From Phaeodactylum tricornutum CCAP 1055/1 (Eukaryota > Bacillariophyta > Bacillariophyceae > Surirellales > Neidiaceae): 64,000 nucleotides of DNA. Positions 2,305 through 59,041 of the stretch are shown here, in pieces. Every line of letters begins with the position of its first letter. Position 1 is the first letter of the stretch. Where the stretch lies: positions 577,518 through 641,517 of the forward strand of contig NC_011678.1 of NCBI RefSeq assembly GCF_000150955.2, written 5' to 3'. The notes beneath the pieces are model-generated. The model was given only the letters and a program-made list of their open reading frames with translations, made no database searches and was not told where the DNA came from. A program made the position numbers and the translations under genes.

Positions 2305-5000
2305 CTACCTGATTCTAATATCTTCGGTGACAGTGTTTGCTCCACTGATGGAGCCAAAGGTCGGTCCTGGCAACCCGAATACAGCTCGTAGTCCTCGACT
2401 CAGCGCGCGCTCCCCTAGACGGGCAATTATCTCGCTAGCCGCTCGCTGCACCCTAGGCTCTTGCGAAAGCTTTCGAACAATCGGAACAAACATGGTGGGG
2501 TCGGACTTTGACCCCGACGCGCCAAGCAATGAGAAAATCCTTGAGAATCGTAGCATTGTTGGTGTTGGTGCTGGTAGAACATCGCGGAGATCGTCAGCGG
2601 CCTTTTTGCGTACCCCTTCGAAGCCCGTTTCTCGTCGCTGTAATATCTCTTGCAGCGAGCGAAATGCCCGGACGGCAGCCACCTCGTCGTTGATTGCTAA
2701 AGCCCGAGATGCATCAAAAATATATCTTATACTTTCTGCACCGAGACTATCAGCAGAATTTACGATCTGCTCGGAAAGCTCAACCAGCATATTGTCGCCA
2801 TCTTCCGAAATCAAATAATCCGTCAACACATCCAAAGCGAGCGTGACGTCGTACCCTGATGACTCCTTCGCTTCATCAAGCAACCCCTCCAATCGATCCC
2901 ATCGAACATGGCCATCTTTCGTCAACGCTAGTCCTTTCAGTGCTTCCTGTAGATCGTCTTGTGGATCGGTCAAAACGCGACTCGCCACGTACGGATACGC
3001 TTCGCCAATAATGCGTGCCTTAGGGTCCACTTGAATGGCCAAGCCTTCCAGGACGCCGAGACACCGAATAATGGCGATATAGAATGGGGGCAGTGAAAAG
3101 GGGTATCGATACATGATGTCTCCAAGCTTATTAATGACGTTCTTAAAATTGAGCTCGCTGATGTCGGCGTCCAATACATCTGGTAACGCGTTTTCCAACG
3201 CAAGTTCGATGGGCTTAAGATCTGTGCCTTCTGGAATGAAGCCCAGCTTGACGTAAAGGCGAACGAGCTTTTCCCAGTCACGGTTAACAATGTGAACAAC
3301 TGCCAGCAGGAATCCATTGCGTTGATTCTTCGTAGCGTAACTCATCATGCCAAAGTCTAAATAACACAAACGGCCGTCCGGGCAGGCCAAAAGGTTTCCT
3401 GAACATGACGAACATTTTGTTGCTAGGTGTGAGCAAAAATCTGCCGTAACAAAAGCAAGCAATTCAGCGTAACAGAATACTTACCAGCGTGGGGATCTGC
3501 ATGGAAAAAGCCATTCTCTGTCATCTCACAATGAACGAAAAGATATAAGTCTCCCTCACAAAGGCTTCCGTTGCGCAGTAGATTCCCTCTCCTATTTCAC
3601 TTACCAAGGATTTGTCGCAAACTGCACTGTACCAGGGTATCAACCAGCTTTGATTCGTCTAAATTGTATCTCGTCAAAGATGCCCGATCCGTTAAACGAA
3701 AGCCGTCAACCCATTCCATGGTCAAGACTTTAGATGTGGTCAAGTCGCTGTAGATTTTAGGCACAAACACGTCCTTGACGCCCGCGTACAGTTCGTTAAA
3801 CCGCTGGGCGTTGGCGGCTTCCGCCACATAGTCGATTTCTCGGTAAATCAGTTCGCCAAAGTCATCAATGATTGATTGTACATCAATATCACGGTTTAGC
3901 AAGCGGAAGATACCATTGTAGATACCGGACCACCAGCGCAGTACGTAAAGATCCAAGGCAATAATCTCTTCGCATCCCGGGCGTTGAATCTTGATAGCGA
4001 CCTCTTCTCCATTTGCCTTGAGTCGTGCTTTGTACACTTGCCCTATGCTTGCCGCCGCAATTGGCTCCTGCTCCACGAGTTCAAAGATTTCCGAAAAGTC
4101 CCGTCCCAGCTCTTCTCGTACGGTCTGGAGCGCAAACTGGTTAGAGAATCGCGGGACATCGTCCTGTAGTTTTTGCAATTCTTCCAAGTATTCACTGGGC
4201 AGCAAATCCGGACGTGAGGCCAGTGCTTGTCCACCTTTAATAATGGCCGGTCCCAAATCAGAAACGGCCTGGGTTAACTGTTGCGCACGGGCCCGGCGCA
4301 TCGGTTGGGATCGGCCCGTGGCGTAGTCCCACACTACCGAGGCGGCCCACCAGCCGATTGGAAAAGCGATCTGAAAATTTCGGACAACCCATTTGGCTGG
4401 CTGACGAAAAAGCAGCTTCTCGGCGGCCACCGGATCGTACTTGACGAGAGGCTCGGCGACCTTGACACCGCGGGCCCAACGAGTGACCAAATTACTCCTT
4501 TCCTGCTGCGGTGTATTCGCGTCACCACTTCCACTTTGTAAGTGCCCATTCAGCCAGAGGCCATCCGGTACTATTGTGCTGTTAAAATTCACGAGAGCTG
4601 ATCCCGTTACGGACGCTGTTGTGCTGGTGGACGTCGCGGCCAGGGCATTGACAAGTTCTTCGTCTCGAGCGGTAAACTGGGACAAGAGTTCTTTGGCTTT
4701 CGCCAAACGCGCCGACTCAGTGGACACGACGCCCTTTTGAGACGAAGAAGTCAAAGATGCTGCTGATGTGGATGTTAGCGACGGCGATTCTGTGGAGGAA
4801 GTTTTTTCAATAGTGGAAGCAGCGAGACGAGACGATCTTGCCGAAGTACCCGATCGCGAAACCGAAAATCGTCGTTGCAAGCCTGCCGAATTCAATGCAT
4901 CTACGCCGGTGCTACCGGCGACAAGGACAAACAGGACTCCCAAAAAAGGCATGGAAGATAGTAGCAAGTTATTGCGACGATAGGAAGTACTCGGTAACAT
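2305..5000 (-). CDS. ABC1/ADCK (UbiB-like) atypical protein kinase, plastid type, three exons
   Basis: ABC1K proteins are atypical kinases/ATPases; plastid members act in plastoglobules on prenylquinone and lipid metabolism. The best model has exons 5000-3605, 3517-3485 and 3398-2305 (all minus), joined by introns of 87 and 86 nt with GTAAGT donors and AG acceptors, both in phase 1, giving 840 residues. Exon 1 holds the N-terminal hydrophobic signal, the family K-x-G-Q motif (I-I-K-G-G-Q, about residue 254), the Ala-rich loop A-A-A-S-I-G-Q-V-Y and the Lys of V-A-I-K-I-Q-R-P-G. The 33-nt middle exon carries E-N-G-F-F-H-A-D-P-H-A-G, the catalytic/metal-binding segment. Exon 3 begins with G-N-L-L and holds L-D-F-G-M (the DFG equivalent). 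The signal peptide and Ser/Thr-rich stretch after it suggest plastid import, but the cleavage motif (V-D-A-L-N-S) is not the textbook ASAFAP. The ATG at 5000 is the first in frame. Confidence 0.92.
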
Positions 5001-45733: not shown

Positions 45734-46048
45734 GATTTTTCTCGAAAGGAAAGGACTGTGAACGACAAAGAGGAGGAGTGGGTGTCGCAAGGAAACTTGT
45801 TTCTCGCGTCTTTGCTCGATCCGTGCTGGGGGAAGGGATGGAGAAGAAGATTCCGCGCCTTGCTAGTCCAGTAGGCGAGAAGGATCGGTGGACCGTTCGT
45901 ATGCTAGCCGTAGTAGTAGTAGGTAGTAGTAGCAATAGCAGTACCACGAGCACTGTCGTTGTCGCTGTGGTTTGGCGCAGCCGTTGACCTTGCGTCACTG
46001 GAGGAATTCGCAACGAAGGTGCGTGTACCTATCAATGTCAATAACTCT

Positions 46049-46111: not shown

Positions 46112-46814
46112 ACTGAAACGAATCTCGCAACACACGGATGCAAAGGACTCTGTTTCCTTCACGATCCGCGGGACCTCGCTGGTACATACACATGCGCGTG
46201 AGGCGGCGGCGGCGGCTCTCCTCTAAATGGATCCGCCGCAGTGCGGGGCTAAGGTCCATTGGTCGTGTTGCAGTTAGGGCGCGTACCCGTTGCATGGCAC
46301 GGCTGGCTCGGTCCGGGGCGTCACGGTCGGCCCGGGAAGAGCCGTTCGTTCATTCGTGATAGGAACCCGCTTTGGTATTTGCGAAACGGAACGGTTGGGA
46401 GTTGTCCACTATGCTTCTTATGTTAGGCTCTATATATATCGTAGTTTTGGAAGATCGGCAATCAGAACGGCCCTCCGAAAAACCCGGCTGGCTGGTTGGG
46501 ATGGGAGACCGACGTACAGACTAGACCAGGCAAAAGGACGAAGGAGAAATACACGACTCTCTCAGTCCAAAGAGCTACTAGAGTGAGAGGAAAAAGATGA
46601 GGAAAGCGACTACCTCCCATTATTCCCCAGGACGGGCAAAAATTTGCGGACTGTGAGGAAGATGGAATAATAGGAAATCCAGTAAACCTACTGTACTGCT
46701 ACTGTTTGCTCCCTTCATCATTTTCTTTCTATGTAAACAACGTAATTTTTTTATGTACACAACGTAGGAGTTGCTCGTTTCTTTAAAAGCACTCTTTCGT
46801 TGCTTCGACCACTT

Positions 46815-46838
46815 CACCCACGTCTCTCGGCGTGGGTG
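46815..46838 (-). other. Perfect 8-bp stem-loop in ArsS 3' region
   Basis: CACCCACG (46815-46822) and CGTGGGTG (46831-46838) pair perfectly around an 8-nt loop. It lies about 95 nt after the ArsS UAA on the gene strand. It lacks the AUGA...GA core and the apical A-A of a SECIS, so it may be a 3' processing or stability element. Confidence 0.55.
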
Positions 46839-46922
46839 TCGTATCAAAGCAAGTCATTCGAGTCTTTGCTTTCTCCACGCACATCTTTCCATCGTTGTCT
46901 CTCACCGGGGCGTCAAGGGTGT

Positions 46923-46944
46923 CCACGGCGTAATTACGCCGTGG
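46923..46944 (-). other. Perfect 22-bp palindrome just after the ArsS UGA
   Basis: The 22 bases are their own reverse complement (CCACGGCGTAA followed by TTACGCCGTGG). On the gene strand they form a GC-rich stem of 8 bp with a UAAUUA loop, starting seven nucleotides after the in-frame UGA and containing the UAA that closes the extended frame. Stem-loops at about this distance after a UGA are known as selenocysteine redefinition elements in some animal selenoprotein mRNAs. Confidence 0.7.
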
Positions 46945-48277
46945 TCCCTTGTCAGCTCGATCCCATACCGGCCGTACATCCAAAACAATGATTGTCCGTC
47001 CGAATCTCATGCTTTTGCAACTCCTCCAACGATTCCACATCAAACACGGTCAAATCCTTACCCATACCGTAACCCAATTGCTGATTGAAATCGCAGTCGA
47101 ACACCTTGCCATCCCAACGGACGGATACGGTATTCACACACATGACAGATTCTATCGTTCCCGCGTTGAAGTTGCGCACCAGTAATTCCATGTAGTCCTG
47201 GAGCTCCCCACGGCGGTGCAAGAAATCCGCAAAACGCTTAATCGGCATGTTCGTCATGGTGAACAAGGCGTCAAACAAAATACCGAAATTGTCGGCCAGC
47301 TGCGATTTGTACTGCGCTTCCAATTTGGTCTGTTCCGGAGGCAAAAAGGCTCCGAGCGGATTGTACACCAAATCCAAATGCAACCCCGATCCCGGAACGG
47401 CGTACCCCGCCTCGTTCAGCGCCAACAAAGCAGCAATGGATCGTTCAAATACTCCACTTCCCCGTTGTTGATCGACATTCGTTTCGGAATAGCACGGCAA
47501 GGAGGCTATCACGCGCACACCGTTTTCTTTCAGAAATTCGACCAGATCTTCCTGTCCCGGTTCCTGCAAGACGGTCAGATTGCACCGATCAATGATTTCT
47601 AGATCGGGTCGAAGGGACCGGGCCATTCGGACCAGGTACCGAAAGTGTGCGTTGAGCTCCGGCGCCCCTCCCGTAATGTCCAGAGTAGTCACGGAGGGCG
47701 AGTGTTCTAACAACCGGAGACACTGGGCAGCCGTTTCTGCCGTCATCATTTCCTGGCGCAAGGGCGAGCTCTCCACGTGACAATGTCCACATGCTTGGTT
47801 ACAGTAGAGACCAATATTGATTTGTAGAATCTTGGTGGTGCTCCGTCGCAGACCGGGACCCGGAACATTTTCGTCAAGAAAGGTTCGGAAAGAAGGAATC
47901 CCGAGATCATCCAATGCGCGTCTGCGGTTTGCCCTTTCTTCTTTCGTAACTTGTGCCGCTCCGAGCTCGGCGTAGCGTTTTGCAGTATTCTGAAAATCCT
48001 CGTCGTCGGCGAGTTCCGTCAAGGTTTGTTGAACGAGCGAGTCACCGAATAAGTCCTTCCGACGCCAGCTTTTGGCTTTTTCGAGGCGGATCTTGTCCAC
48101 TTCCACCGACGTCTTGCCGTAATCTGGTAGCTCTGGACGATTAATATTGTCTTCGGTTGTGGACGATAACAAGGTCCGCGAGGAGCGTTGTTTTGGTGCC
48201 ATCGTTCGCTGTCGCTGTTGAAAAGCGACCGACTGGGCTATGAGGAGACACACCCATAAGGGGCCCTTCCTGTACAT
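46934..48277 (-). CDS. arsS: Radical SAM protein of ArsS (arsenosugar biosynthesis) family, probable selenoprotein
   Basis: From ATG 48277 the frame gives 441 residues, then UGA (46954-46952), five more codons (Q-G-T-T-A) and UAA. The radical SAM core has C-N-Q-A-C-G-H-C (C-x3-C-x2-C, [4Fe-4S] site) and L-D-I-T-G-G-A-P-E. The C-terminal Cys-rich domain has V-M-C-V-N-T, W-D-G-K-V-F-D-C-D-F-N-Q-Q-L-G and H-C-F-G-C-T-A-G-M-G-S-S, after which the family has Cys or selenocysteine followed by x-G. Here that codon is UGA, so the natural protein is read as 447 residues with Sec at 442. ArsS links the 5'-deoxyadenosyl group of SAM to methylated arsenic, an arsenic detoxification step known in cyanobacteria and algae. 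The N-terminus has a signal-like stretch ending S-V-A-F-Q, so plastid import is possible. TTGACTGTGAT lies about 90 bp upstream. No certain SECIS was found by eye. Confidence 0.88.
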
Positions 48278-57170: not shown

Positions 57171-57841
57171 ACAATACATACTTGTCTTTAGGGAGCGAGC
57201 GATGCCTACATTGCACACAACTCTTGTGTATTTTGTATTTTTGCTTTTTCACTATATCAACAACAACGAACTCGATGATCATCTCTACACGACCTATGCA
57301 ATCAATACTACCACCAAAACGGCAATGTACCTTAAAAGAATAGGTGATTTGTTGTACAAGGGGAACCTTTTGAACTTTCTCTATGTTAGTATTTTGTAAC
57401 TTGATGGTCTACACTCGATCCCGTACGGAAAGTGGACGTAGTAGAGCTCTAGCAAATGGACCCCTGCCCTGCCTTTCTGGTTGCGCATTTGTTGTTTACA
57501 GTTAGAGCGAGCGTCTCGAGCACAGAGCGGGGGTGTCTCTAGCGTCCGGGAAAAACGGACCTCGTAAACCCTAGACGGAGCAAAGAGACTAGGGTTATTT
57601 TCTCTTCACGTGGCCGCATTATGGTTTTTTCTGTGCCTCTATACCCACCGTACCGGGAACTCAACCTTGTTCTTCCACCTGATATGTCCGGGTCCGCGGC
57701 TTCCCCGAAGAAAGCAACATGACCTGTTGGGCCCATAGATTCTCCGCGCTTTTGCCGTAAGATCCGCTTCTCCATTCCATTATTTGTGACGCAGCGTGTT
57801 TTAAAAGCCTGACATTCCGATCCTTGCGTTCTTTCTTGACC
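57171..57841. other. Intergenic
   Basis: 671 bp: MYB 3' UTR and ascorbate peroxidase upstream region. TTTACAGTTAG lies at about 57495-57505. No RNA gene recognised. Confidence 0.4.
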
Positions 57842-59041
57842 ATGGCGAACGCTCACTACGCTGACGAGTTCTACGACAATGCGGCACGCGCCGAAGTCTC
57901 CCGGGCTATTGTGAACAAGAAGGTGAACGTCTGTCCCTTCACGGTTCGTCTCGCGTGGCACGCGTCGGGCACCTTTGACCAGAGCGATGCCAGTGGTGGC
58001 AGCGACGGTGCCCGCATGCGTTACGCCCCGGAGCTTTCCGACGGTGCCAATGCGGGTCTCGCTCTCATGCAGGACATTATCAAACCCGTCAAGGAAAAGT
58101 TCCCGGACATGTCCTACGCCGATCTCTGGACCATGGCGGGAACGCAAGCGATCAAGCTAACGGGAGGACCGGACATTCCGTTCAACTACGGACGGACCGA
58201 CGATGCGGACAACAACAAGTGTCCGGCCAACGGACGTCTACCGGACGCGACGCAAGGCGCTGAGCACCTGCGAGATGTCTTTTATCGTATGGGCTTTGGT
58301 GATAAGGAGATCGTTGCCCTGTCCGGAGCGCACACCCTCGGATCGTGCCACCGTTTGCGCTCTGGTTTCGACGGACCCTGGACCACGAACCCCCTCAAGT
58401 TCGACAATGAGTACTTTAAGAATCTGCTCGAGATCGATTGGAAGCCTCGCGAGTGGGAAGGTCCCTTGCAGTACCAGGATCCTTCCGGAAAACTCATGAT
58501 GTTGCCCACCGATATGGCACTCATTCAGGACGAAGCGTTTTTGCCTTTTGTCAAAAAGTACGCCGAAGACGAGCAAGCCTTCTTTGCTGATTTTGCCGAA
58601 GCTTTTGCTGCTTTGATCTCCAAGGGATGCCCCGCGCACTGTCAGCCCAATGCTGAGCGTCAGGCTCCCCAACACGACTCCAACAAGGAGTTCCGCGATC
58701 TCGCTATGCACGGCTCCGTTGAGCGCATGGAAGCCGCTAGTGAAGGTGTCGATGTGAACGCGAAGGAAGCCCATTCAGAGCGTACCGCCATGCACAAGGC
58801 GGCCTTTTTTGGACACTCGAATGTCATGGAGTACTTGATCGGTCTCAAGGGTGACGTCAACGCGGTCGATGCGGACGGGGACACTCCCCTCCACGATGCC
58901 GCCAAGTTTGGCCACGATGCCGTGGTAGAAGCTTTGCTCAAGGCTGGAGCGGACAAGACAATCCGAAACAAGGAAGGAAAGTCGGCTACCGACTTGGCGG
59001 CGGCCAATGGTAAAGATGCCGTTGTCAAGATGCTGGCTTAA
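57842..59041 (+). CDS. Ascorbate peroxidase fused to C-terminal ankyrin repeats
   Basis: 399 residues from ATG 57842, one exon. The class I haem peroxidase domain (~residues 1-275) has the distal triad region V-R-L-A-W-H-A-S-G-T-F, the proximal V-A-L-S-G-A-H-T-L-G-S-C-H, and R-S-G-F-D-G-P-W-T-T-N-P-L-K-F-D-N, which carries the Arg and Trp typical of ascorbate peroxidase, plus L-P-T-D-M-A-L. It should reduce H2O2 with ascorbate. From residue ~284 three ankyrin-type repeats follow (E-R-T-A-M-H-K-A-A-F-F-G-H; G-D-T-P-L-H-D-A-A-K-F-G-H; G-K-S-A-T-D-L-A-A-A-N-G). No signal or transit peptide, so cytosolic. The fusion is unusual: typical cytosolic APX has ~250 residues and no ankyrin part. There is no intron or frame change between the parts, and strong codon bias suggests high expression. 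Confidence 0.92.
   Translation: MANAHYADEFYDNAARAEVSRAIVNKKVNVCPFTVRLAWHASGTFDQSDASGGSDGARMRYAPELSDGANAGLALMQDIIKPVKEKFPDMSYADLWTMAGTQAIKLTGGPDIPFNYGRTDDADNNKCPANGRLPDATQGAEHLRDVFYRMGFGDKEIVALSGAHTLGSCHRLRSGFDGPWTTNPLKFDNEYFKNLLEIDWKPREWEGPLQYQDPSGKLMMLPTDMALIQDEAFLPFVKKYAEDEQAFFADFAEAFAALISKGCPAHCQPNAERQAPQHDSNKEFRDLAMHGSVERMEAASEGVDVNAKEAHSERTAMHKAAFFGHSNVMEYLIGLKGDVNAVDADGDTPLHDAAKFGHDAVVEALLKAGADKTIRNKEGKSATDLAAANGKDAVVKMLA

Follow-up and report, generated by a model that had tools for sequence, protein, structure and literature searches.

A probable selenocysteine codon in an ArsS-family gene of the diatom Phaeodactylum tricornutum, followed by a non-canonical SECIS-like element

Does the UGA that interrupts an arsS-like reading frame in Phaeodactylum tricornutum end the protein, or is it read as selenocysteine (Sec)? 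In the 64-kb stretch of DNA analyzed here, which we call the window, a minus-strand frame running from 48277 to 46952 ends ...TDNHCFGCTAGMGSS-UGA, and reading on through this codon gives ...HCFGCTAGMGSS-UGA-QGTTA-UAA, the sequence and location that the initial annotation had reported for the C-terminus. Up to the UGA, the open frame comprises 446 codons when counted from the preceding stop and 441 when counted from the ATG at 48277. With the UGA (46954-46952) read through, the gene would occupy 46934-48277 on the minus strand and encode 447 residues with U at position 442, the M-G-S-S codons (46966-46955) lying just 5′ of the UGA and the proposed true stop, UAA, at 46936-46934. We favor, at a probability of about 0.75, a eukaryotic ArsS that contains Sec and whose SECIS departs from the canonical form.

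Judged by its sequence, the gene product is a member of the ArsS radical SAM family, as had been proposed. It matches the ArsS profile TIGR04167 at 421.9 bits against a cut-off of 300, over positions 2-302 of the 303 in the profile; profile searches also detect PF12345 (DUF3641) and PF04055 (Radical_SAM), the radical SAM CxxxCxxC motif is present as C159, C163 and C166, and the C-terminal CxGCTAGxGSS[C/U] motif is present as CFGCTAGMGSS-UGA. Identity to 32 aligned bacterial ArsS sequences is 50-58%, and the protein is longer than bacterial ArsS by some 140 residues at its N-terminus. At its N-terminus, MYRKGPLWVCLLIAQSVAF (48221-48277, minus strand) resembles a signal peptide of diatom type with an ASAFAP-like plastid motif, and MYRKGPLWVCLLIAQSVA-F in the same segment is similar to the signal peptide and Phe motif found in plastid proteins of diatoms. 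Based on this N-terminus, arsenosugar synthesis may take place in the plastid. In marine algae, arsenosugars are a main form in which arsenic ends up. In bacterial arsenosugar synthesis, arsenic adenosylation by ArsS is mentioned in PMC12159101.

Because UGA is also an ordinary stop codon in the window, terminating 6 of the 21 ORFs listed there (the arsS-like frame included), the weight of the argument rests on the position of this particular codon, on the tail that follows it and on the RNA structures downstream. The UGA falls in the Cys/Sec column of the family, as the initial annotation had claimed, and in bacterial ArsS this column does not vary: all 141 of the loci read have a Cys codon after GSS, 133 of them recognized by motif and 8 with a divergent motif read by eye. 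These relatives comprised the best 80 of 184 loci on genome contigs, the results of searching two of their own genomes, and the best 30 loci from each of two phylum-wide family searches; of the 143 loci gathered, two (L083 and L084) were dropped as other radical SAM proteins, and those placed in the tree include three identical pairs (L081/L002, L082/L001 and L111/L003). A bacterial Sec form, with UGA at the Cys position, was found in none of the 141. The two phylum-wide searches returned a family match in 157 of 377 and 92 of 294 genomes, with no internal stop among the matches listed; 52 plasmid records also match the family and stand outside the 141-locus codon count, and no relative was found on the viral contigs scanned. 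CxACTAG replaces CxGCTAG in seven of the bacterial loci (L014, L015, L024, L072, L127, L133 and L140), which lie in several parts of the tree.

Seventy-nine columns are identical in all 32 aligned bacterial sequences, and the window protein keeps 78 of the 78 that remain when the UGA column is set aside, the cluster cysteines among them, which argues that the gene is under constraint and has not decayed. Beyond the UGA, the tail Q-G-T-T-A (46937-46951, minus strand) has the commonest length of the family, the distance from Cys to stop being five residues in 57 of 133 bacterial loci, and it retains Gly as the second residue after the Cys, which is found in 133 of 133; QG directly follows the Cys in 4 of these 133.

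In the 3′ flank, where the initial annotation had called for a SECIS, a SECIS-like element is present on the minus strand at 46786-46872, although it is not of textbook form. Helix I is formed by AAAGC/GCUUU and ACUC/GAGU, the core consists of AUGAC (46857-46853) opposite CGA (46799-46797), helix II has 12 bp with one bulged base, an internal loop places unpaired GA (46840-46839) opposite AA (46814-46813), and helix III with its loop spans 46838-46815. The AUGAC/CGA core lies 94 nt 3′ of the UGA. We read the core by eye, against the energy model, as tandem G.A pairs with a C.C mismatch, whereas the model pairs UG with CG. The element thus recalls form 2 of the eukaryotic SECIS in its downstream position, its GA core (as read by eye), its 12-bp helix II, its internal loop, its apical helix and its helix I, and departs from that form in having GA in place of AAR or CC and in finding no Rfam match. 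Its apical helix is longer than is usual for form 2.

How rare such an element is depends on the measure used. Folding energy gives a z of -6.15 against 1000 shuffles, and the plain folding energy is not extreme, 172 of 25,566 89-nt windows being at least as stable as the SECIS-like stretch. A scan pattern designed after the element had been seen (UGA-N-helix-N-GA, with at least 9 paired among the first 13 bases and the apical motif not required) ranked it best, at -35.7; the two strands of the 64 kb gave 65 candidates in all, partly overlapping, and the next scored -29.5. None of 2000 shuffles of the 251-nt flank reached a score of -30. When the whole 64 kb was shuffled 20 times, the top score equalled or bettered -35.7 in 3 cases; a match of this quality is therefore expected about once per several windows of 64 kb, and one sited 94 nt behind the UGA should be far rarer.

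The departure from known SECIS elements is concentrated at the apex. Published descriptions place an AAR motif at the apex (PMC2746813). One search rule in the literature looks for AA or CC at a distance of 10-13 nt behind the quartet, with 15-39 nt remaining to the 3′ GA (PMC2375036). In the element described here the distance from quartet to apical pair, 13 nt, is inside the published range, the distance from apical GA to 3′ GA, 40 nt, is one over the published limit of 39, and the unpaired apical pair is GA, not the canonical AA/AAR or CC. When NUGA, AA or CC, and GA were strictly required, a scan of the window returned 53 candidates, of which none lay in the 1.2-kb 3′ flank. Rfam models, whose sensitivity on diatoms is uncalibrated, were run on 3.8 kb and on 211 bases around the gene and gave no SECIS up to E=10; the matches that were obtained all lay far below the gathering scores of their families. 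Some predicted algal selenoproteins are on record without a SECIS predicted by SECISearch3 (PMC6627142), so a miss by the standard models is not rare. If the element is a SECIS, diatoms must accept GA at the apex; we think this likelier than that it is no SECIS at all, because the other SECIS features fit, and the element offers a concrete case for deciding whether the apical AAR can vary in diatoms. Over part of its length, a 42-nt stretch at 46829-46870 has a 71% copy at 45775-45816, some 1 kb downstream and near the start of a kinesin-like ORF.

A second predicted RNA structure adjoins the UGA itself. The stem-loop at 46914-46951 (minus strand) starts at the first base 3′ of the UGA and has a folding energy of -25.4 kcal/mol (z -7.15 against 1000 shuffles), an energy reached by none of 63,962 38-nt windows on both strands at step 2; the next most stable are the same site on the plus strand, at -23.5, and then a site elsewhere at -22.6. 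Its upper stem is a 22-nt perfect palindrome, CCACGGCGTAATTACGCCGTGG (46944-46923), which begins at the 8th base after the UGA and has the UAA near its centre. In a bacterial SECIS, the hairpin follows the UGA directly and its small apical loop carries a G. We rejected a SECIS of this type because the loop here is AAUU, without G, and the setting is eukaryotic. We also rejected a mobile repeat as the source of this hairpin and the SECIS-like one: allowing up to 3 mismatches, the window holds no further copy of either. By analogy, the stem-loop is probably a redefinition element similar to the SRE of SELENON and SELENOT, which likewise lies just 3′ of the UGA (PMC8704476), although the hairpin in the window has no spacer and contains the true stop. 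According to the same source, structures adjacent to stop codons stimulate readthrough, and SREs aid redefinition in SELENON.

Taken as a selenoprotein gene, the locus would produce a Sec-containing ArsS, a radical SAM enzyme of arsenosugar synthesis, in the following manner. The nuclear mRNA would carry a type-II-like SECIS hairpin with its core about 95 nt after the UGA, and this hairpin would recruit a SECIS-binding protein together with the Sec elongation factor, bringing Sec-tRNA. The strong hairpin immediately after the UGA would bias the ribosome towards Sec, and the UGA would be decoded as Sec442, after which QGTTA would be added and translation would end at UAA, the true stop. Within DUF3641, Sec442 would stand where the bacterial relatives have their invariant Cys near the C-terminus, in the arrangement C431-x2-C434-x7-U442, and it is a candidate cluster ligand or redox partner of C431/C434. 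The frame, the Cys column, the tail and the predicted RNA structures with their rarity are what the sequence shows; the working of the RNA elements, Sec insertion and the role of Sec in the enzyme are inferred. The initial annotation had described this residue as likely catalytic; in the AlphaFold model, whose top PDB match is 6efn (SkfB), tail residues 442-447 are left unplaced at pLDDT <50, so the model does not inform the position of Sec. No solved structure matched the window protein by sequence at E 0.001. A standard gene caller would end the protein one residue before the proposed Sec, as had been stated, and if ArsS needs Sec, gene models of the enzyme would lack its last six residues and arsenic handling would depend on selenium supply.

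If the UGA were simply a stop codon, a Cys codon would have mutated to UGA, the protein would end at GSS and might work less well without its last Cys, and the hairpins would serve as signals for processing or stability in the 3′ UTR. The change from TGY to TGA takes a single base, ending in UGA is usual for ORFs of the window (6 of the 21 listed, this frame included), and a canonical SECIS was found neither in the Rfam scans nor in the AA/CC scan of the flank. However, ordinary termination must also accommodate Cys in 141 of 141 bacterial relatives, the retention of 78 of 78 other invariant columns, a tail of family-typical length with its invariant Gly, the best-scoring SECIS-like element of the 64 kb, and an adjacent hairpin that exceeds every other 38-nt window tested in stability, and we judge it unlikely. 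Readthrough without selenium, in which the adjacent hairpin would promote insertion of Trp, Arg or Cys to give a small full-length share of product, gains from the presence of a hairpin directly 3′ of the stop, a kind of structure known to stimulate readthrough (PMC8704476); nevertheless, only the insertion of Cys would bring back the chemistry of the invariant residue, the AUGAC/CGA core of the SECIS-like element is left unexplained, and we regard this alternative as very improbable.

Two further explanations were weighed. A recent nonsense mutation, a pseudogene or an assembly error in one record is conceivable insofar as the evidence comes from a single record, but no other lesion was seen, all 78 of the other invariant columns are kept, and two RNA structures would be left unexplained, all of which makes this explanation highly improbable. 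An intron spanning the UGA, which the initial annotation had named as an observation that would speak against Sec, finds a donor-like string, GTATGG, within the GMGSS codons. Splicing at that site would also remove the conserved MGSS, there is no GT between GSS and the UGA, and a search of the 1.2-kb flank for SSC-like strings yielded only two GSS strings with no Cys after them; because the only nearby GT would take MGSS with it and no SSC-bearing exon was found downstream, we consider the chance of such an intron to be negligible.

The preferred reading, a Sec-containing ArsS, has a predicted bacterial precedent. Sec forms of this family are on record, in agreement with the initial annotation: one is listed as a high-confidence prediction in PMC13188914 (TIGR04167, motif GxxU, AAR34688.1). 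The window gene shares with ArsS/TIGR04167 the whole catalytic domain, the DUF3641 C-terminus and the Cys/Sec column after GSS, while differing from bacterial ArsS in that it resides in an apparently eukaryotic nuclear genome, has UGA for Cys, and is followed by a 3′-flank hairpin instead of a bacterial SECIS signal. Diatom genomes are credited with 20-44 predicted selenoprotein genes in section 5 of PMC7539508, an algal selenoproteome survey in whose abbreviations FeSoxR stands for FeS oxidoreductase, and the figure legend of PMC5917014 lists Fe-S oxr among the selenoproteins of Aureococcus. The name of this algal family, on which the comparison was made, would fit a radical SAM protein; FeSoxR may be the same protein as ArsS or a different one. 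Among the 16 selenoproteins that PMC2375036 lists for Thalassiosira pseudonana there is no radical SAM protein. For P. tricornutum itself, a likely misannotated Sec has been reported in SELO (PMC3281104), and the row for this species in a tRNA survey shows no UCA anticodon, which speaks against Sec, but also no Cys tRNA (PMC7678280). Among the open-licence papers that our searches listed, judged by title or by passage, we found none on a eukaryotic Sec-containing ArsS and none combining ArsS with selenoproteins and radical SAM, or selenoproteins with arsenosugar biosynthesis.

This class of protein is already known, and what is new here is the SECIS-like element together with the UGA-adjacent hairpin, an unusual signal. 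That this gene is the first eukaryotic Sec-containing ArsS and that it uses a two-part recoding signal, a UGA-adjacent hairpin containing the stop and a SECIS with an apical GA, is a fuller proposal that we advance tentatively and with some doubt. Were it true, diatom SECIS-binding factors would accept a purine pair other than AA, current SECIS searches would miss such genes, and selenium supply would gate arsenosugar synthesis, possibly in the plastid.

The neighborhood of the gene is eukaryotic. A kinesin-like ORF, recognized from its translation, lies on its 3′ side, and a domain scan of ten ORFs (three without a match) placed a sulfotransferase-like ORF on its 5′ side and identified, as further neighbors, an NTF2/RRM protein and a fusion of a peroxidase with ankyrin repeats; ARAGORN found no tRNA within the 64 kb. 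In a quick tree, the window protein and seven bacterial rows, among them a named Planctomycetota locus, make up a clade of 8 rows (SH-aLRT 96). The protein thus falls outside the clade of cyanobacteria (37 rows, SH-aLRT 99), and it sits on a long branch that the program flagged as unsure; sampling for this tree was narrow, and for that reason we do not press the origin of the protein. The peroxidase fusion occupies 57824-59041 (plus strand), where a haem peroxidase domain and ankyrin repeats share one open frame. At 2305-5000 (minus strand) an ABC1 kinase extends over two neighboring open frames, which match profile positions 1-184 and 191-242; an intron or a break in the frame may therefore separate the two.
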